Shown here: positions 25,205 through 44,102 of the stretch, piece after piece
How positions within the stretch are numbered: the stretch's first letter is position 1
Layout: each line of letters begins with the position of its first letter
Origin: a virus
DNA length: 50,294 bases
Direction: 5' to 3' (one strand)
IMG/VR virus record: IMGVR_UViG_3300037993_000208
Coordinates: 1 to 50,294 of that record
Program-made: the position numbers and the translations under genes
The notes under the pieces: generated by a model
Seen by the model: the letters and a program-made list of their open reading frames with translations, nothing else
Databases searched by the model: none
What the model was told of the DNA's origin: nothing

Positions 25205-25584
25205 GCAGACTGTGCGTTGTGCTGCTGCTGGCGTCGGTCGCTGTGGGGCAGGAGCCGAGGATAATTGGCGATCCGCACGAAATTACCGATTTCACAATCG
25301 TTGACTGGTGGCCCGCTGTCACCCGCCATCCCGAGATGCCGCTGCCGGAACCGAAGTTATGGCCGCTTACATTATTGCTTGGTAAGGCGTCAGGCGCTGG
25401 AGGTCCGTGCCTTCCAGGTAGCACGTTGTTTTGTAAGATTGGGCCATCATTTGAGCCGAAGCCATCCGATTGCCAATGGGCAGACGACAAGCCAAGGCTT
25501 CCCCTGACCTGTGAGCTTACAAGTGAACATCCAGTAGAATGGACGTGCAAGGTTGCTCATGAAGCAGAATCGAGGAAGAAATGA
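25201..25584 (+). CDS. secreted Cys-containing protein
   Basis: GTG 25201 starts VSRLCVVLLLASVAVGQEP, a short Sec signal peptide with likely cleavage after AVG or GQ. The mature part has five Cys and Pro/Trp-rich segments (PVEWTCKVAHEAESRKK at the end), suggesting a disulfide-stabilised periplasmic protein. The gene is coupled to the small membrane protein upstream and the HNH gene downstream. Confidence 0.65.
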   Translation: MSRLCVVLLLASVAVGQEPRIIGDPHEITDFTIVDWWPAVTRHPEMPLPEPKLWPLTLLLGKASGAGGPCLPGSTLFCKIGPSFEPKPSDCQWADDKPRLPLTCELTSEHPVEWTCKVAHEAESRKK

Positions 25585-26114
25585 CAGAAATTGAATTCTA
25601 TCCTCTTCGACTAGGGGCAAAGGCAGTTATCAGCGAAACTGATGCTCCGTTTGTTCTCCGCTACAAATGGCATTTGAAACGCCGTGTCCACAAGAACGGA
25701 AGGGTTGATTCCTATGCTGCTCGTTGGGAATCTGATCCTGCCGGGAAAAGACGAAGAGTGTTGATGCATCACGATGTTACGCGACGAAAATACGGCGAGC
25801 AACTACGCCGCCACATTGATCATCGAGACGGTAATGGATTGAACAATCGGCGCAGAAATTTGCGTTGGGCTACGCAGGCTCAAAATCAATGGAATTCCGG
25901 CCCCCATCGCAATAATTCGTCTGGATTCAAAGGAGTATGTTTTGATCGCGGGAACAAAACCGGAGCGAAAAAGTGGAAAGCAAAGATTGAGTGTCATGGA
26001 CGCCAAATAAATCTGGGGCGTTTCCTCACTGCTGAAGAAGCGGCTATAGCTTATAACGAAGCCGCCTTGAGATTGTTTGGACCGTTCGCAAGGACAAATC
26101 CCGCGCCCTGCTGA
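25581..26114 (+). CDS. HNH homing endonuclease with AP2 DNA-binding domain
   Basis: A 177-residue protein. The HNH core is VLMHHDVTRRK ... RHIDHRDGNGLNNRRRNLRW (about residues 55-98) and the AP2-like domain is SGFKGVCFDRGNKTGAKKW ... RFLTAEEAAIAYNEAA (113-167). This is the usual order in phage intergenic homing enzymes. GAGGAAGAA precedes the ATG. The end lies at a junction where a different frame continues as the C-terminus of another protein, so it appears inserted in a former gene. Confidence 0.85.
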   Translation: MTEIEFYPLRLGAKAVISETDAPFVLRYKWHLKRRVHKNGRVDSYAARWESDPAGKRRRVLMHHDVTRRKYGEQLRRHIDHRDGNGLNNRRRNLRWATQAQNQWNSGPHRNNSSGFKGVCFDRGNKTGAKKWKAKIECHGRQINLGRFLTAEEAAIAYNEAALRLFGPFARTNPAPC

Positions 26115-30784: not shown

Positions 30785-31369
30785 ATGATTGTCACCGACA
30801 TCACCGACGAGACCTCGTACCCTGACTGTCTGCGATCCGAGGCTGACGAGCAGGGACTGACCCGGTCAGGCGGGTTACACTTGACAACCGTTATCAGAGA
30901 CATCGAACAGACGATCGAGCCCCGCGACCTCTGGTGCAGTCAGGAGGAACTCGCTTTCTTTGGGGCAGGCGGATTCATGTGGGAGCGCGTATTTTCAGAA
31001 GCCCATCGAGATGCGGTCAAGAGCGGCGATCTAATCAGGCCGGGCGAGTTCGAGCTTGACGGTGTCACTGGCAGTCCCGATTTGATTCGCGTATCGGACT
31101 GGACGCTACTGGAGACGAAATGTACTTGGCGAGGTCTCCGGCAGTGGGAGTCACTGGAGAAGAATTTTTGGAGCTGGCTGTGTCAGGTTAAGTCGTACTC
31201 GCACATGATTGGCACTGACGTAGCAGAAATTCACGCTTATTTTGTGGCCGGGAACTGGCGACCGCCGATACCATGCGTTCGATCGGTACGGCTGGAATTC
31301 AGAAAGCATGAGCTGGTGGAAAACTGGCGAATGATCGTTCGACACGCTCAGAGCCGAGGTTGGATCTAA
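30785..31369 (+). CDS. PD-(D/E)XK nuclease, RecB/Cas4-like fold
   Basis: A 194-residue protein with GSPDLI (Asp99) and LLETKCTW (Glu110, Lys112), the conserved GxxD...ExK active site, and a helical motif QVKSYSHM (about 138-145) corresponding to the QxxxY motif of RecB-family exonucleases. An upstream Glu in WERVFSEAH completes the usual set. No four-Cys Fe-S signature is present, unlike Cas4. It probably resects DNA ends for the RecA-like recombination system encoded nearby. Confidence 0.8.
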   Translation: MIVTDITDETSYPDCLRSEADEQGLTRSGGLHLTTVIRDIEQTIEPRDLWCSQEELAFFGAGGFMWERVFSEAHRDAVKSGDLIRPGEFELDGVTGSPDLIRVSDWTLLETKCTWRGLRQWESLEKNFWSWLCQVKSYSHMIGTDVAEIHAYFVAGNWRPPIPCVRSVRLEFRKHELVENWRMIVRHAQSRGWI

Positions 31370-31992
31370 TGGGACGCCCCGCGACAGTTTGGACTAAGGC
31401 AAATATCAAGAGGCTTTTGTATTCCCGTAGAAAGATCGTCCAAAAGCCGGGAGTATCAGGAGTGTGCTGGGAGTACACGGGGTACAAGTGTCCCAAAGGA
31501 TACGGTCGATTCGGGGTTAAAGGTAAACCCATAGCGGCGCACAAGGCGGCGATGTGGGCGATTAAAGGTGACGACAGGGCATTCAGTTCTCCAAAAGAGA
31601 ACATCGTGTGCCATACTTGTGACAATCCAGCCTGCTTTCGTCCTGCTCACATTTATGTCGGCACGTATACAACAAACAATCGTGATACCGTGAACAGGGG
31701 ACATAGCGTTTACGCCAGCAGGAATCATTGCTCTAAAGGACATTTGTATACGCCGGATAACACTGCGATTTATAAAGGAAATCGCATCTGCAAAACCTGC
31801 GCGAGTGATTTCCACAAGAGGTATCGAAGGGAAGGACGATTCAAGCCGCGTGATCCGGCAAAGCGGCGAATTCAGCGGATGCGTGTCTACTGGAGCAATC
31901 CAGAGAAGTACCGTAAGCAGGTAAGAGAATACGAGCGCAAACGTCTCGGCATACCTCCTGAGAGATGGAGAATCAGAGGGGAAGCCGCATGA
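31369..31992 (+). CDS. HNH homing endonuclease (His-Me finger type)
   Basis: A 207-residue protein. CWEYTGYKCPKGYGRF and AAHKAAMWAIKG are followed by VCHTCDNPACFRPAHIYVGT (about residues 81-100), the active-site signature CHxCDNPxCxxPxHLxxGT. The C-terminal module CSKGHLYTPDNTAIYKGNRI with CKTC is a zinc finger, then a basic tail. ATG 31369 overlaps the preceding TAA, and the end overlaps the next ATG (ATGA). The insertion is therefore seamless between nuclease and small gene. Confidence 0.88.
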   Translation: MGRPATVWTKANIKRLLYSRRKIVQKPGVSGVCWEYTGYKCPKGYGRFGVKGKPIAAHKAAMWAIKGDDRAFSSPKENIVCHTCDNPACFRPAHIYVGTYTTNNRDTVNRGHSVYASRNHCSKGHLYTPDNTAIYKGNRICKTCASDFHKRYRREGRFKPRDPAKRRIQRMRVYWSNPEKYRKQVREYERKRLGIPPERWRIRGEAA

Positions 31993-32250: not shown

Positions 32251-33030
32251 ATGAGTCGGAAAAATACATGGGAGCGTAAAGCGCTACAGAAGGTGTTGCT
32301 AAACAAGAGAATCGTCAGCGATGAGTGTTGGCTATATACAGGACAAAATGTGAGAGGACACGGAATCATCAAGATCAGCGGTCAAGCTGTTATGGTGAGC
32401 CGCGCCTCACTGTGGGCTTTCAAGGGCCTTCGGCGTATGAAAGACCGCAACACACCCATAAGAATCAGGCGTCGTTGCGCCAAGGTTGCTTGTTTCCGCC
32501 CCTCTCATCTTTATATCGAGGCTACGATTGTTTCAAAAGGGCAACCGCCTATTCCCTTGGCGCGTAAGCGTTGTGCGCGGTGCGGTAGTGTACGGCTAGC
32601 GAAACATTTTAACCCTGATCCTAGAAACAGGAGCGGATTGGACTCATACTGCCGGGAGTGCAGTAGCCGATATGTACACGATTATTATGAACGCAACCCT
32701 AACGCAAAAAAAGATAGCAACAGGAGGCATTACGCTACTGTCCGCAACAAGGTTTTCGATCATTATGGGTGGGTCTGTTCCTGCTGTGGAGAAACTGAAC
32801 CCTTTTTCCTTACTACAGATCACGTAAACGGTAATGGCGGAGGGCACGATAGATTGCTTCGTGGTTATGCTATGTACAAGGCCATAATTGATGCCGGATT
32901 CCCTGACGATTTCCAGATTCTTTGTTTTAATTGTAATTGTGGCAGATATCGAAATGGCGGTACGTGCCCTCACAAAAGTGCCAGCACGAGCCTGTTAGAG
33001 AGGAAGCGGGTTGGCGCAAGACTTATATAG
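32251..33030 (+). CDS. two-part HNH endonuclease
   Basis: A 259-residue protein. The first 90 residues resemble the His-Me finger enzymes (ECWLYTGQNVRGHGIIKI, CAKVACFRPSHLYIE), but the catalytic CHxC segment is degraded to RRRCAKVAC. A four-Cys finger follows (CARCGS...CREC). Residues about 165-245 form a second, intact HNH: YGWVCSCCGE, TTDHVNGNGGGHDR and LCFNCNCGR. It thus appears to be a fusion of a decayed and an active endonuclease. It is transcribed from its own leaderless promoter. Confidence 0.82.
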   Translation: MSRKNTWERKALQKVLLNKRIVSDECWLYTGQNVRGHGIIKISGQAVMVSRASLWAFKGLRRMKDRNTPIRIRRRCAKVACFRPSHLYIEATIVSKGQPPIPLARKRCARCGSVRLAKHFNPDPRNRSGLDSYCRECSSRYVHDYYERNPNAKKDSNRRHYATVRNKVFDHYGWVCSCCGETEPFFLTTDHVNGNGGGHDRLLRGYAMYKAIIDAGFPDDFQILCFNCNCGRYRNGGTCPHKSASTSLLERKRVGARLI

Positions 33031-33067
33031 ATCAAAGATGGACTTATCGAGAAAGGACTCATCTAAC

Positions 33068-34015
33068 ATGGCACTCAATCTCAGTCGGCCTCAGCCTCGG
33101 GCTGAACAACCGGAATCCGAAGTGGAAGACCAGACGCGAGTAATACGTCGGGATCGAGAACGATCATCGGCTACCGGCACTGCTACTATCGCGGACACTG
33201 TCACTCCCCAATCATCAGCCGATCTGGTGTCCGGTGAATCTCGCGAATTCATCCTGCTGGCGGGCAAGGATGGCGTGGGCAAGACATGCGCGGTCATCAG
33301 TCTGGCCGCGTACGTGGAGCTGATCTCGCCTGAAGCCAAATTCTTCATCATTGACAGCGAAAGCAAGGTCAAGACGGCATTGAAGTCGTTCGGCCCAGAC
33401 GCTCCCTCTAACATCGTCTACTACAAGACCGACAACATGAACCAAGTCACGTGGGCGGCTGATCAGATACTCGCGAAGCATAAACCCGGTGACTGGCTGG
33501 CGGTCGAGTCCATGAGTCGTATATGGGAGCGTGCTCAGGATCTTGGCTATCAGGCGATTGCCGGCATGATGAAAGCCGAATACATGGAACGGCGTGCGGA
33601 GCAAGTCAGGAGGGAAGGCGGTAAACCCGCACCTGTAACGCCATCTCCCGATCAACTGTGGTCGGTCACCAAGGGCGCTCATGATGGTGCGTTCATGGAC
33701 AGATTGACGGCATGCGAGACCCTGAATGTGATGTTGACCACTACATTGTCCCGACCCCCGAAAGAGGGAGGATTCATGCGTGAGAATGTGGAGCGCAAGG
33801 CTCTCAGGGTCGAGCTGGGCATCGATGCGGGCATCGAGGGGGCGCCGAGGCTTCCGTATTATATAGAATGTTTGGGCCTGCTTGAGCTAAAGAATGGCGT
33901 AGTCACATGCAGGATATTGCGCGACAATGCCTCGACTAACGAGGAGACTCGTGGCGAATTCACCGTTCAGAACAAGAAAAGTTGGGCGGCGGATTTTTAT
34001 TCGAACTGTCGATAA
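33068..34015 (+). CDS. RecA-like AAA ATPase, possible Sak4-type recombinase
   Basis: A 315-residue protein with Walker A LLAGKDGVGKTCAV (about residues 62-75) and Walker B-like DWLAVESMSRIW (about 137-148), the RecA-core AAA_24 type. Phage members of this type (Sak4) promote single-strand annealing with an SSB partner. The N-terminal 55 residues are a disordered charged leader. ATG 33068 is preferred since GAGAAAGGA precedes it; ATG 33038 is possible. It is followed directly by ERCC4-related sequences. Confidence 0.8.
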   Translation: MALNLSRPQPRAEQPESEVEDQTRVIRRDRERSSATGTATIADTVTPQSSADLVSGESREFILLAGKDGVGKTCAVISLAAYVELISPEAKFFIIDSESKVKTALKSFGPDAPSNIVYYKTDNMNQVTWAADQILAKHKPGDWLAVESMSRIWERAQDLGYQAIAGMMKAEYMERRAEQVRREGGKPAPVTPSPDQLWSVTKGAHDGAFMDRLTACETLNVMLTTTLSRPPKEGGFMRENVERKALRVELGIDAGIEGAPRLPYYIECLGLLELKNGVVTCRILRDNASTNEETRGEFTVQNKKSWAADFYSNCR

Positions 34016-34021
34016 CCGGGC

Positions 34022-34129
34022 ATGATTCAAGTTGACAAACGCGCCGGTTCCGAGAAACTGATCTCCCCCTTGCGATCTCTCGGCGTTGAAGTCGAGGAAA
34101 CAATCCTCAGCTATGGTGATTATTCGTGA
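34022..34129 (+). pseudogene. orphan N-terminal fragment of an ERCC4-type nuclease gene
   Basis: The 35-codon frame begins MIQVDKRAGSEKLISPLRSL and ends in ILSYGDYS-stop. It aligns with the first 37 residues of the intact nuclease at 35663 (MLCVDNRAGSSKLIPLLKGL...YPYGDVN) at roughly half identity. The stop overlaps the GTG of the PP-loop gene. It looks like the 5' end of an older nuclease gene cut off by the insertion of the PP-loop/HNH/nuclease block. Confidence 0.7.
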
Positions 34130-34881
34130 CTACGACATTCTATGGCTTCTCAGGCGGGATGGAGAGTACAGCGGCTTTGGTCGTTGATCGTCAGCGTATT
34201 CGGGATAAAAAAGCTATCGTTGCATGGGCCAACACAGGAAAACAGTTCCCCGAAATGCCATCGTCTATCAAGCAAATTGAAGAGGTGCTTGGTCTCGCTA
34301 TTGTAGAGGTACCGCGACGAATTACGTTTGACGAGTTTCTTTTCGAGCGCGGCGGTATCGTGCGGAAAGGAACTACCGACTGCTCTCGCAGAATGAAGCG
34401 CGGCAACCTCACGCGCTACATGAAAACCTTCCCTAAGCCTTATGAATGGAATTTGGGCTACAACTCTGGCGAGGAAGATCGTGCCGAGAAGTTTCAGCGG
34501 CGCAATGAACGGTCTTGGCTACACTGGCGGTTTCCTCTAATAGAGGCTGGAATCAGCCGCGAAGATACTTGGGACATATGCCGCAAGGCTGGTTTTACGA
34601 TTCTCGTCAGCATGTATGAAAAGATGGGTCGATTCGATTGCTTTTTCTGCGGTAACCAAACGAAGAAGCAAGCCCTGAAGGTTGTCGAATACTATCCGAA
34701 ATTGGCTGAAGAGTGGATAGATAAGGAGGAACGCAAGGGAGTACCGTTTATGGGCGGATTCATGCCCTTGAGATCACTGATAGAGGCCAACAGAACCGGA
34801 GTTGGTGTTCCCGAAACAAGGACAAAGTGCGCCTGTTTCGGCGGAGACGAAGACTTTCTGGACGACGAAGAGGATGAGTGA
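34126..34881 (+). CDS. PP-loop ATPase, PAPS-reductase-like
   Basis: A 251-residue protein with the PP-loop FSGGMESTAALV (residues 8-19), the adenylating P-loop of PAPS reductases and related alpha hydrolases. TTDCSRRMKRG (about 83-93), the pair CFFCG (about 171-175) and CACFGG near the end suggest a Cys-bound metal centre. Phage members are often called phosphoadenosine phosphosulfate reductases, but several adenylate other substrates, including in DNA or tRNA modification. GTG 34126 lies inside the stop of the truncated nuclease fragment. Confidence 0.75.
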   Translation: MTTTFYGFSGGMESTAALVVDRQRIRDKKAIVAWANTGKQFPEMPSSIKQIEEVLGLAIVEVPRRITFDEFLFERGGIVRKGTTDCSRRMKRGNLTRYMKTFPKPYEWNLGYNSGEEDRAEKFQRRNERSWLHWRFPLIEAGISREDTWDICRKAGFTILVSMYEKMGRFDCFFCGNQTKKQALKVVEYYPKLAEEWIDKEERKGVPFMGGFMPLRSLIEANRTGVGVPETRTKCACFGGDEDFLDDEEDE

Positions 34882-34890
34882 ATTTTTATC

Positions 34891-34920
34891 TTGCATCGTA
34901 TCCGTTCCATATGCTATACA
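34891..34920 (+). promoter_or_regulatory. short-leader promoter of an HNH gene
   Basis: TTGCAT (34891-34896), 18 bp, TATACA (34915-34920), then ATG 34929 after 8 nt. An overlapping TACAAT (34917-34922) would place the ATG exactly 6 nt after the -10. No Shine-Dalgarno is visible. Confidence 0.55.
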
Positions 34921-34928
34921 ATGTAGTC

Positions 34929-35663
34929 ATGCCTCCGGCGGTTCCACGATTGATGTTCCACTGTAAGATATGTGGCGAGCCTTTCTACCGTACCCGTGCG
35001 AGGATTCGCGATCCCCGTCATCGTCATCCCAAGTACTGTTCCCGTGCATGTATGTTGAAGCGCAGACAACTCAACGAAAAAAGGAACTGCGTGTACTGCG
35101 AGAAAGAGTTTTATGTGGCGCCTTGGGAGAAAAGAGCCGACCGACAATTCTGTTCCAAGAAATGTTGGAGCTATAATCGCAGAACTCGCTGGAATAGAGA
35201 AGAACTTACGCAGAGGCTGTTTGCTCGCCGTCGTATTGTTGCGCGTTGTCCGGAATTGGGACCGTGTTGGGAATATACAGGCTGCATCAGCAGCGGGTAC
35301 GGTCACATCTATGTTGGCGGGAATTGGATACGTGTGCATAAGGTATCGGCTTGGGTGTTTCTGAACAGCAGGAGAGCCATTCAGAGAGGTCGGTCTGTTA
35401 ACGTTTGCCATGTCTGCGACAATCCCACTTGCTTCAACCCGGATCATCTTATTGTGGGTACTCCTAGGATAAATTCGCGGGACATGGTGAACAAAGGCCG
35501 TCACGCCAGCCAAATTAAAATGCACTGCAAGTATGGTCATCCCTTCTCTGGAAATAATCTGGTCTGGGTTAAGGCCCAAAGCGGGAAAATGTCTAGAGTA
35601 TGTAGAACGTGCCGCAATGCAAGGTCTCGTGAACACGCACACGGAATCAAAAGGATGCACTGA
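34929..35663 (+). CDS. HNH homing endonuclease with three zinc modules
   Basis: A 244-residue protein. Two FCS-like fingers come first (HCKICGEPFYRTRARIRD...YCSRAC and CVYCEKEFYVAPWEK...FCSKKC). The catalytic His-Me finger is VCHVCDNPTCFNPDHLIVGT (about residues 160-179). The last finger is CKYGHPFSGNNLVWVKAQSG with CRTC. ATG 34929 is preferred from the promoter position; GTG 34878 in frame is possible. The stop overlaps the next ATG (TGATG). It travels with the PP-loop and nuclease genes. Confidence 0.85.
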   Translation: MPPAVPRLMFHCKICGEPFYRTRARIRDPRHRHPKYCSRACMLKRRQLNEKRNCVYCEKEFYVAPWEKRADRQFCSKKCWSYNRRTRWNREELTQRLFARRRIVARCPELGPCWEYTGCISSGYGHIYVGGNWIRVHKVSAWVFLNSRRAIQRGRSVNVCHVCDNPTCFNPDHLIVGTPRINSRDMVNKGRHASQIKMHCKYGHPFSGNNLVWVKAQSGKMSRVCRTCRNARSREHAHGIKRMH

Positions 35664-36436
35664 TGCTCTGCGTAGACAATAGAGCCGGATCATCCAAACT
35701 CATTCCTTTATTGAAGGGTTTGGGTTGTGAGGTCGAAAGCGGCATATACCCTTACGGAGATGTGAATTTTTTAGGATACGGTGCAAACGGCGATCCTGTC
35801 TCGGTGGGGGTTGAGGTGAAATCCATTGAAGACGTGATCGCCTGCATCCAGTCAGGCAGGTTTGCAGGCCACCAGTTGCCGGGACTGTTGCAGTGTTACG
35901 ACCATATCTGGTTACTGGTCGTTGACGACTATCGCCCACGCCAACGTGACGGCGTGCTCGAATATCGCAAGGAAGGCCGGGGCGGGGGGATGTACTGGTC
36001 GGAGTCGTGCGGGAGACAACGAACAGTGCTGTGGAGGGATGTGGAGAGCTGGCTCATGACCATCCAGATTATGGGCGGCATCCGTGTTCATCAGGAGCCT
36101 GACTACATGCATGCCGCGCTCTGGCTGAAGAACACGGCCAACTGGTTTGCGCGGGACGAACACAAGTCACACAAAGTCATCTACGGCACCAAGGAGATAT
36201 TCCCCGATCACGCGCTGCTGCTGAAGCCCACATTGGAACGACGTGTGGCCGCGCAATTACCTGGCATCGGGGAGAAGCGATCTGCGGACGTAGCGAGAGT
36301 TTTCCCAACGCTTGAGGATATGGTCAAGGCATCACCGAAAGACTGGGCAACCAAGGTGGAGGGGATCGGCAAGGGAATAGCCCAGAAGGTGTACACGGCA
36401 ATTCATCACCAGAATTCATCACCAGAACGGAGGTAG
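35663..36436 (+). CDS. ERCC4-type nuclease with helix-hairpin-helix domain
   Basis: A 257-residue XPF/MUS81-like nuclease. The active site is VDNRAG...GDVNFLG then VGVEVKSIEDVIACIQSGRF (about residues 47-66), the VERKxxxD variant of this family. Residues about 190-245 form the HhH2 domain (AAQLPGIGEKRSADVARVFP and VEGIGKGIAQKVYTAI). It would cut branched DNA. A 13-bp tandem duplication at the 3' end has changed the last residues and removed the GTGA overlap with the next gene. An orphan N-terminus of a relative lies at 34022. Confidence 0.85.
   Translation: MLCVDNRAGSSKLIPLLKGLGCEVESGIYPYGDVNFLGYGANGDPVSVGVEVKSIEDVIACIQSGRFAGHQLPGLLQCYDHIWLLVVDDYRPRQRDGVLEYRKEGRGGGMYWSESCGRQRTVLWRDVESWLMTIQIMGGIRVHQEPDYMHAALWLKNTANWFARDEHKSHKVIYGTKEIFPDHALLLKPTLERRVAAQLPGIGEKRSADVARVFPTLEDMVKASPKDWATKVEGIGKGIAQKVYTAIHHQNSSPERR
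36401..36426 (+). repeat. 13-bp tandem duplication at the nuclease gene 3' end
   Basis: ATTCATCACCAGA is present twice in direct succession (36401-36413, 36414-36426). Because 13 is not a multiple of three, it shifts the last codons: the frame now ends at TAG 36434-36436. With one copy it would end at TGA 36441-36443, overlapping the next GTG at 36440 as GTGA. Confidence 0.8.
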
Positions 36437-36966: not shown

Positions 36967-37239
36967 ATGGCTCAAGTGTGCGGATACACCAACCCGAACG
37001 GCATCAAATGTGGCCTCAAGCTCAAGCATTTTGGCGATCACGAACTCTGCGAGCAACTGGTCGAACCCGATCCGTTCTGTATACGCGCAACTGATACATT
37101 CGCGCTCGCGACCATCCGAGCATGGATAGCATGCGCAGCCGCGCACGGTGTCAAGCGGGATAAGATCCAGAAGGCCGAGGAGAAGTTCAAGGAGATCAAA
37201 CGATGGCAAGCGGTGCACGGGACGCGACTACCGGGATGA
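36967..37239 (+). CDS. small hypothetical protein with Cys/His motif
   Basis: A 90-residue protein: CGYTNPNGIKCGLKLKHFGDH (residues 5-25) has two Cys and two His arranged like a zinc knuckle, a layout recurring in phage proteins (CGx5-8C..xHxxxH). The remainder is helical and basic. The stop overlaps the start of the next gene. Confidence 0.7.
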   Translation: MAQVCGYTNPNGIKCGLKLKHFGDHELCEQLVEPDPFCIRATDTFALATIRAWIACAAAHGVKRDKIQKAEEKFKEIKRWQAVHGTRLPG

Positions 37240-38240
37240 GCGAGCAGCCGCTGACGGCAGTTTATAAGTCAGGTCAGTGGGTGCCTGGGGGATATACGGC
37301 CATTTGTCCACAATGCCATCAGGAATTCTTCTCCAAGCTGATGAAGAAGTTCTGCTCCATGCGCTGTTACACCTCGTCGGACGAGTTCAAGCACAGGATG
37401 CGCAAGTGGTCCGAGACGCACTCTGCGCGAATGCGGGAACGAGCCGGAGTATCTGATCCTACGCAGCGAATGTTACGCGCCTGTATCCACTGTAGCAAGG
37501 AGTTTTACACCAAGCCTTCAATAAAAAATAACAAGTTTTGCTCGCAGACTTGTTACCGCGATTATATGGCGGAGAGGTTTGATCGATGGGTCGCAAACCC
37601 GCAGAAGATCGCCCTCCCTCAGTGTTTCGACGAATTTCTTGGGCAGATCGAACTGCCTTGTTTGGTGGAGGGCTGTGAGTGGCGCGGACAATTCTTGGGG
37701 TATCACGTAAATCTGGCCCATGGGATCACGGCCGAAAAGTTCAAGGAAATGGTCGGATTCAATAGGAAAACCGGGCTTATAACGCCGTCGCTCCGAGAAC
37801 TTATCAGTCATATCCATAAGGGTTTGATCGCCGCCGATCCAGCCAAGTTTACAGGCGGTCGTTTCGAGAAAGGAGATGGATGGAGACAGGGTAGTCCAGA
37901 ACGGGCAGAGGAGCGTCTGGAGGCCAAGGAGCACCGCCTGAAGGCGAGAGCGTTGCTGGAGTACCCGCAAAGAGAAGCGCTGTGCGCAGCCTGCGGTGGT
38001 GAATTTACATATCGTGCCGCAAGGCAGTCCTATTGCTCCACAAAGTGTCGGGACAGATTTTATCACGCACGCCGCTGGGAAATGACGTGCCACTTTTGTA
38101 CCCAGAGGTTCCTTGGGGCTAACCACCAGAGGCTTAGGATGATCAATAAGGGCGGCCCTGTATATTGTTCAAAGTCTTGTGCGGCTGCCGTGAATAGTCT
38201 AAAGCCTCGTAAGCGACATGGCAAAGAAAAGGCTTGCTGA
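37236..38240 (+). CDS. multi-zinc-finger protein with MucR/Ros-like segment
   Basis: A 334-residue protein with four FCS-type Cys4 modules: CPQCHQEFFSKLMKKFCSMRC (about residues 24-44), CIHCSKEFYTKPSIKNNKFC, CAACGGEFTYRAARQSYC and CHFCTQRFLGANHQ...YCSKSC. The middle has CLVEGCEWRGQFLGYHVNLA and HGITAEKFKEMVGF, close to the MucR/Ros C2H2 finger with its following helix. Similar fingers occur at the N-terminus of the HNH protein at 34929. It is likely a sequence-specific DNA-binding protein, perhaps the targeting part of a decayed endonuclease or a regulator. Confidence 0.75.
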   Translation: MSEQPLTAVYKSGQWVPGGYTAICPQCHQEFFSKLMKKFCSMRCYTSSDEFKHRMRKWSETHSARMRERAGVSDPTQRMLRACIHCSKEFYTKPSIKNNKFCSQTCYRDYMAERFDRWVANPQKIALPQCFDEFLGQIELPCLVEGCEWRGQFLGYHVNLAHGITAEKFKEMVGFNRKTGLITPSLRELISHIHKGLIAADPAKFTGGRFEKGDGWRQGSPERAEERLEAKEHRLKARALLEYPQREALCAACGGEFTYRAARQSYCSTKCRDRFYHARRWEMTCHFCTQRFLGANHQRLRMINKGGPVYCSKSCAAAVNSLKPRKRHGKEKAC

Positions 38241-42934: not shown

Positions 42935-43575
42935 AAATTGTAACCGCACTACTCGCTGTCATGCTCGTCACGGCCGCGGCATTCGCTCAGGCGCCGGTCG
43001 TCAGCTCACCTCAGTATTCCGTCAACCTCAGCTTCCTCACCGGCGGCCCGTACAACCAGACTTCCGCGCTGGACGTGACTTTTGGCAGCCAGTTCACGAC
43101 CAACAACCGCATTCAGGCCGACTTCATCACCATGCCCGGAGCCTCGTATACCGGATACTTCGGAGGGGACAGCTACGACCTTTGCGCAATCCCCGCTGTA
43201 GCGAATGTGCTGGCGTCCACGTCTCTCAGTTGCGGCAAGTTCTCGCCGTTCGTGACGGGACAGGCCGGACTGGGGAGGCTACAGTATGGCAGCAACCCGT
43301 CCAGCCAGAGCTTCGCTGCCTTAGGGGGATTCGGTATAGGGTACGACCCCACGGGCAAGGGTAACTATACGTTGCTGTTCAAGGGTGGCTGGGGACATTT
43401 CGGGCCTAGTTTGCCGGGAGCGAGCAGCAACGGATTCTACTTCTATTCCGGCATCAGCTTTGGCACCGGCACGAGCGCGAGCGCGACTCAGGCCAAGATC
43501 GCCCGCATCCGGCAGGCCGAGGCCAAGAAGCTGAAGAAATTGCAAGCGGCTGCCGCCAAGGCGTCAAAGACATAG
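42931..43575 (+). CDS. exported outer-membrane-barrel-like protein
   Basis: A 214-residue protein with a Sec signal peptide (MKIVTALLAVMLVTAAAFAQ, cleavage after FAQ). The mature part alternates aromatic and small residues (YSVNLSFLTGGPYNQTSALD, AALGGFGIGYDPTGKGNYTL, FYFYSGISFGTGT), as in eight-stranded outer-membrane barrels, and ends in a basic Ala/Lys helix. GGAGG precedes the ATG by 7 nt. It could alter the host surface against superinfection. Confidence 0.7.
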   Translation: MKIVTALLAVMLVTAAAFAQAPVVSSPQYSVNLSFLTGGPYNQTSALDVTFGSQFTTNNRIQADFITMPGASYTGYFGGDSYDLCAIPAVANVLASTSLSCGKFSPFVTGQAGLGRLQYGSNPSSQSFAALGGFGIGYDPTGKGNYTLLFKGGWGHFGPSLPGASSNGFYFYSGISFGTGTSASATQAKIARIRQAEAKKLKKLQAAAAKASKT

Positions 43576-43580
43576 CCTTT

Positions 43581-44102
43581 ATGAAAGTCCTTGGGATAAC
43601 GCAAGGGTACGAGACTTTTGTAGACGATGCCGACTATGAGTCGGTATCGCGATTCAAGTGGTACGCGAAAGCCAGCGCCAGCAAACTAAAGTCTGGCGCT
43701 GTTGTTTATACGGTGTATGCTCAACGTGGTCGTGGCACCAGAGTCCAGTCCCTTCATCGATTCTTGACTGGTGCGCCTGCCGGTGTCGAGATTGATCACT
43801 TGGACGGAAATGGACTCAACAACCAAAGGTGCAATCTGCGAGCCTGCGATCACCGTCATAATCTAGCAAACCGTGGAGTACAAAGGAACAATACGAGCGG
43901 TTTCAAGGGAGTGACGATAGAAGCGGGGAAGTGGGTGGCAAAAATAGGCAGCGGCAAAAGCGGTTATCGAAGGACAGCCCTTGGAGCCTTTGATAGCCCC
44001 GTGGATGCCGCTAAGGCGTATGATCTGGCAGCGATCAAGAGATGGGGAGAATTTGCCAAAACAAATCAGTCTCTCGGCCTGTTGCCTGATAGTTTTGTCT
44101 GA
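43581..44102 (+). CDS. HNH homing endonuclease with AP2 domain
   Basis: A 173-residue protein with LHRFLTGAPAGVEIDHLDGN and GLNNQRCNLR (HNH core, about residues 63-92). The AP2-like part is TSGFKGVTIEAGKWVAKIGS ... DAAKAYDLAAIKRWGEFAKT (about 110-160). It is a relative of the enzyme at 25581. It starts 6 nt after the exported-protein gene without a clear ribosome site, as expected of an intergenic mobile gene. Confidence 0.87.
   Translation: MKVLGITQGYETFVDDADYESVSRFKWYAKASASKLKSGAVVYTVYAQRGRGTRVQSLHRFLTGAPAGVEIDHLDGNGLNNQRCNLRACDHRHNLANRGVQRNNTSGFKGVTIEAGKWVAKIGSGKSGYRRTALGAFDSPVDAAKAYDLAAIKRWGEFAKTNQSLGLLPDSFV

Follow-up and report, generated by a model that had tools for sequence, protein, structure and literature searches.

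The broken front of an ERCC4-type nuclease gene beside a PP-loop gene and an HNH gene in a virus genome: a possible trace of one-sided homing

A short frame of 35 codons, matching the beginning of an ERCC4-type nuclease, lies in front of a PP-loop gene, an HNH endonuclease gene and a second, intact ERCC4-type nuclease gene in the window, which denotes here the whole stretch of 50,294 nucleotides analysed (IMG/VR record IMGVR_UViG_3300037993_000208). The observations comprise the stump itself, its affinity to the nuclease of the related locus L008, the exact joint between the stump and the PP-loop gene, and a break in base composition. The explanation that fits best, with about an even chance of being correct, is a one-sided homing event in which the HNH gene was the driver and from which a nuclease of probably hybrid nature resulted. 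The features concerned are as follows.

33011-34015, + strand: RecA/Sak4-like recombination ATPase, the left resident flank (homology to L002/L003, synteny)
34022-34129, + strand: orphan N-terminal 35 codons of an ERCC4 nuclease of the L008 type, stop included (match to the L008 nuclease)
34115-34120, + strand: GGTGAT, codons of the conserved nuclease Gly-Asp (read from the sequence)
34126-34128, + strand: GTG microhomology joint, where nuclease TCG|TGG meets the PP-loop start (G/A)TGAC (comparison of L002, L008, L030, L031, L006 and L007)
34126-34881, + strand: PP-loop ATPase (PAPS-reductase/SspD-like) of low GC (Pfam PF01507 above cut-off; phrog_424; PADLOC SspD)
34878-35663, + strand: freestanding HNH endonuclease, alternative start 34929, N-terminal Cys pairs (Pfam PF05551, phrog_826)
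35663-35797, + strand: nuclease codons 1-45, a probable replacement that came with the HNH tract (GC3, identity to L008)
35798-36436, + strand: nuclease core and HhH domain, probably resident (87% to L008 in codons 51-140; blastn match from 35812)

The orphan frame (34022-34126, translation MIQVDKRAGSEKLISPLRSLGVEVEETILSYGDYS, with TGA at 34127-34129) starts 6 nt behind the RecA-like stop codon and runs up to the start of the PP-loop gene. As an earlier, sequence-only reading of this DNA had proposed, its codons match the start of the intact nuclease at 35663. In this comparison, 20/33 amino acids are identical (61%), tblastn gives an E value of about 2e-6 to 2e-8, and the ungapped BLOSUM62 score of 90 is far outside the values from shuffled sequences (mean -34, sd 13, maximum 36 in 200,000 shuffles). 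The DNA of the two copies is 53% identical over 99 nt, which excludes a recent tandem copy, in agreement with the same reading; its description of the copies as about half identical holds for the DNA and not for the protein. A closer match, 82% over 33 aa, is found with the N-terminus of the intact L008 nuclease, which begins VIQIDKRAGSEKLIPILRRLGVEVEETILPYGDAAW. This match points to the orphan as the broken front of an L008-type nuclease and upholds its derivation from a different, formerly intact gene; its sequence identifies the frame as a genuine remnant of an L008-type ERCC4 nuclease gene that was resident here. Over codons 1-35, the orphan shares 77% of its amino acids with L008 and the intact copy of the window 57%, so that the terminus presumed to be native and displaced is nearer to relatives than the one presumed to have been substituted. 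Homology to the N-terminus of the ERCC4 family is provided by the L008 match, and only PHROGs gives the orphan an ERCC4-type match, a weak one (phrog_3490, E 0.12). The catalytic Asp of the GD motif is present and the frame is truncated before the ExK residues; since these are absent, the stump should not act as a nuclease by itself. When the window was compared with itself, no gene-end fragment other than the orphan had a full-length partner next to an HNH gene. Separately, the frames 25563-26111 and 43410-44099, both distant from this region, were seen to be paralogous (36% over 184 aa).

The cut coincides with the point at which the GTG of the PP-loop gene begins, as had been claimed and as the letters at 34126 confirm. 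The orphan ends GAT TAT TCG TGA, and the nucleases of L002, L008 and L030 have [T/G]CG TGG at this place. Relatives of the PP-loop gene begin with GTGAC in L031 (GTGACTAC) and with ATGAC in L006 and L007. Thus GTG is common to the nuclease side and the PP-loop side and forms a microhomology of 3 nt. Furthermore, GGTGAT ends 5 nt before this GTG and resembles a Shine-Dalgarno sequence; as a ribosome site, it would have allowed immediate translation of an imported PP-loop gene.

GenBank phages contained no close DNA or protein relatives of the region, the nuclease or the RecA-like protein, and bacterial and archaeal genomes no relatives of the nuclease or RecA-like families. In IMG/VR, ERCC4 genes belonging to the family of the window nuclease were found at 14 distinct loci, one each in the region. 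Most lie 0.1-4 kb downstream of a RecA-like gene; in L008 and L030, the gene upstream is a different one that occupies the recombinase place. A fifteenth locus, L010, begins inside the nuclease gene. The RecA-like protein of the window (weak AAA_25 and Sak4-like matches) is 62-64% identical to those of L002 and L003, and the gene with its downstream ERCC4 gene is syntenic in L002, L003 and most of L014-L026. An orphan ERCC4 N-terminus was present in none of the 14 related loci, and a 35-codon frame kept as a gene of its own beside a full nuclease was sought among the relatives and not found. The search for further N-termini of the fragment type returned only L008, and neither a donor nor a same-lineage phage in the pre-insertion state was found. 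The expectation of phages in which a RecA-like gene is followed directly by an intact nuclease similar to the fragment was borne out as regards the intact gene, in L008, and not as regards direct adjacency: the L008 gene lies behind a different recombinase and several genes, and L020, the one locus with the nuclease directly after the RecA-like gene, has a distant nuclease. Two side observations concern these loci. The recombinase slot holds two families that have no mutual tblastn match and stand among similar neighbouring genes, the RecA-like family in the window (33011-34015), L002, L003 and L014, and another family with no Pfam match at L008:2400-3266 and L030:2372-3238. At L023:6413-7125, by comparison with L022, an internal deletion appears to have broken the ERCC4 gene in two frames.

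The protein of the PP-loop gene matches phrog_424 (4e-28), and relatives were found in L006, L007 and L031. None of these three has an HNH or ERCC4 gene beside the PP-loop gene, and none of the other ERCC4 loci has a PP-loop gene. A travelling PP-loop/HNH/nuclease cassette, as the earlier reading had described these genes, was rejected, a second example being absent from both groups. In its own right, the PP-loop protein matches PADLOC SspD, of phosphorothioate DNA modification (4e-17), and PptA in PDB by profile.

The HNH gene matches PF05551 above the cut-off, HNH_3 just below it, and phrog_826 (8e-28); its stop overlaps the ATG of the nuclease (TGATG). No Rfam match to a group I intron was found in 33900-35900, and the HNH/His-Me finger domain lies outside an intron or intein, as in freestanding homing endonucleases. 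An exon split by an intron was rejected: beside the lack of an Rfam intron in this interval, the downstream nuclease is of full length and a split exon is therefore not what is seen. An HNH gene lies directly at the nuclease start in two other loci, L030 (with a TTGA overlap) and L018, the latter with an HNH gene on each side of its ERCC4 nuclease, and in L003 a different endonuclease gene separates the recombinase from the nuclease. Endonuclease genes have therefore landed repeatedly in the recombinase-nuclease interval. The HNH enzyme, earlier named as the likely agent, is plausible in that role because HNH genes adjoin the nuclease start in L030 and L018 as well. The nuclease start occurs with an HNH gene in these two loci and without one in L002 and L008, none of them near enough to give the exact site. 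A specific tie between the HNH gene of the window and that of L030 was not found; its nearest relative is the window HNH gene at 31360, a point that counts against homing at this locus. As further observations, at least three related HNH genes (31360-31992, 32251-33030 and 34878-35663) lie within 4.5 kb of the replication/recombination region, the one at 31360 occupies the same place as one HNH gene in L002, and 37203-38240 encodes a zinc-ribbon protein with a match to an HNH-annotated PHROG. The two HNH genes of L018 (8564-9145 and 9830-10222), 37% mutually identical, overlap the ERCC4 nuclease at both its ends.

The nuclease at 35663-36436 has the attributes of an ERCC4 nuclease: PF02732 is matched at 2.1e-7 and 31.4 bits (Pfam ERCC4 cut-off 24), G32 D33, E51 K53 and D57 of the GD...ExK...D motif are invariant in the nuclease alignment, and the C-terminal HhH matches the XPF and Hef HhH in PDB. 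Its relation to L008 changes along its length, with 87% amino acid identity in codons 51-140 and 55% in codons 1-50. The identity between the L008 and L002 nucleases also drops at the N-terminus, from 80% to 53%, and the same holds in other within-group pairs, so the contrast of 87% and 55% alone is no proof of a swap. By blastn, the window matches the single L008 nuclease gene in two pieces, 34023-34107 and 35812-36207, both at 73%. The dN to L008 is 0.139 for the orphan (dS saturated), equal to that of the nuclease core (0.138), and 0.373 for the window nuclease's own N-terminus; measured against the outgroup L030, the N-terminus is no faster than the core, both for L008 and for the window. 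Base composition provides a further indication. GC3 is 0.44 before codon 45 of the nuclease and 0.69 after it, the change point at codon 45 having a permutation p of 0.044 for the nuclease gene alone. With the HNH gene placed in front, codon 45 is found again (p 0.005, support interval codons 36-69), and a change at the start of the nuclease is 4.3 log units worse. Since the change falls inside the gene, resemblance to the HNH tract appears to be confined to the first ~45 codons; an AT-richer tract extends from ~33.95 kb to ~35.75 kb. No significant GC3 break was found in the nucleases of L008, L002 or L030. On this basis, the intact nuclease is probably a hybrid of a donor front and a resident core. 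The earlier view that a cassette with its own divergent nuclease replaced the resident gene is retained for the truncated resident gene, and import of a whole nuclease is doubtful in view of the composition break near codon 45. In the opposite direction, GC3 of the fragment (0.54) is below the 0.69 of its supposed parent core, which also counts against the homing explanation. Exchange at the 5' end of the nuclease is not unique to the window: L010 differs from L008 at 15/36 nt in codons 40-51 and at 55/612 thereafter (p < 0.0002). The recombination boundary of L010 (L010:1-36 against L008:4902-4937) is of interest by itself, the first 12 codons being diverged from L008 with a protein resembling the window nuclease, and the rest having about 91% DNA identity to L008.

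The proposed sequence of events would begin with a resident phage in which an L008-type ERCC4 nuclease lay directly downstream of the RecA-like gene, co-infected with a donor carrying PP-loop, HNH and nuclease genes in this order. The HNH endonuclease would have cut the resident nuclease, we infer, near codons 36-50. On the right side, the conserved nuclease core would have provided the homology for repair, and leftward copying would have imported the N-terminus of the donor nuclease, the HNH gene and the PP-loop gene. Since homology was absent on the left side, the broken resident end would have been joined illegitimately at the GTG that is the PP-loop start codon. This would leave 35 codons of the resident gene as a stump, together with the imported genes and a nuclease of full length that probably combines a donor front and a resident core. 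What we infer in this scheme is that the HNH enzyme cleaved, in which direction the genes were transferred and that the nuclease is a hybrid.

The main rival is plain mosaic exchange, which we consider possible although unlikely: an illegitimate crossover between a phage with a RecA-like gene and an L008-type nuclease and a phage with PP-loop, HNH and nuclease genes would have imported everything to the right of 34126, the whole nuclease included, with no HNH cutting. This corresponds to the proposal of the earlier reading with the HNH agent removed. Phages are mosaic, and a joint at microhomology would be expected from such a crossover as well. The trees also lean this way, the core tree placing the window nuclease outside L008 and L002 (82) and the orphan fragment grouping with L008 (71). 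A core tree in which the window nuclease is grouped with L008 is not rejected (AU 0.13), however, and when linked and unlinked branch lengths were compared, proportionality was rejected about equally with either N-terminus; the trees are too weak to decide and do not prove a hybrid nuclease. Against wholesale exchange stand the position of the GC3 break, inside the nuclease rather than at its start, and the right flank, which diverges from L002 about as much as the left (65-72% DNA), so that no large import is visible.

Old tandem duplication in the lineage is improbable; in this scenario the two copies would have diverged, the PP-loop and HNH genes would have entered between them, and the upstream one would have decayed to 35 codons. 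The copies belong to one gene family on the same strand, and a sister relation between fragment and window nuclease is not statistically rejected (AU 0.26). Nevertheless, L008 resembles the fragment more than the local copy does (82% over 33 aa against 61%), all 14 related loci have a single nuclease, and the cut falls exactly at the PP-loop start. Slightly less credible again is retention of the 35-codon frame as a functional small gene or a translational leader for the PP-loop gene. The GTGA stop/start overlap, GGTGAT as a ribosome site 5 nt before GTG, and the concentration of differences from L008 at third positions (20/29) would suit such a role, yet a homologous stand-alone frame is absent from all relatives and other genes lie upstream in the PP-loop relatives. 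A leader role would be compatible with origin as a remnant. An assembly or amplification chimera of two strains is very improbable: the window is a single uncultivated virus contig and no close second copy was found, but an overlap of 3 nt is far too short to mislead an assembler, and at the joint a start codon falls precisely on the N-terminus that the PP-loop protein shares with L031.

If homing is the true explanation, the locus preserves, as a natural fossil, the outcome of one-sided homing in a phage. It would follow that the end of a repair gene can be rewritten by a freestanding endonuclease while the gene survives, and a concrete cleavage site would be predicted near the conserved Gly-Asp codons of the nuclease. 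The mechanism of homing is known in principle; leftover stumps are rarely caught in phages.

The intact nuclease resembles the ERCC4-family proteins XPF, MUS81 and Hef in its ERCC4 domain, C-terminal HhH and GD...ExK...D motif, and differs from them in its length of 257 aa, in having no helicase domain and in being encoded by a phage gene without a close PHROG family. For the proposed event, the nearest phage parallel is in T4, where homology on one side only leads to illegitimate repair at microhomologies on the other side, an outcome described from experimental homing with one exon absent (PMC2988022). One-sided homing of this type would yield exactly the anatomy seen at the window locus. 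Intronless homing by SegF, SegG and MobE of T4-like phages (PMC2988022) shares with the window a freestanding endonuclease gene beside a replication/repair gene, a start/stop overlap with the neighbour, conversion-like replacement of flanks and an illegitimate junction at microhomology; cleavage and mobility are putative at the window locus. Unlike these systems, the window keeps a stump of the target gene, and an unrelated second gene, that for the PP-loop protein, came along. In fungal mitochondria, mobile ORF elements bring along a foreign version of a gene's end, which takes the place of the native end, as in Allomyces atp6, Rhizopus atp9 and Glomus atp6/atp9/cox2/nad3 (PMC3630166). These elements deal with the C-terminus and encode LAGLIDADG or GIY-YIG enzymes, whereas the N-terminus and an HNH enzyme are involved in the phage, and only part of the native terminus remains in the window. 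Both arrangements have an endonuclease gene beside the substituted terminus, which is a putative one in the window, and the displaced native terminus, nearer to relatives, on the other side (PMC3630166). Tentatively, and as a somewhat unlikely proposition, the HNH gene and the adjoining nuclease N-terminus may constitute one mobile unit, a phage counterpart of the mitochondrial mobile ORFs, that exchanges the front of the target gene, keeps the nuclease functional and resistant to cutting, and abandons the former front as a stump.
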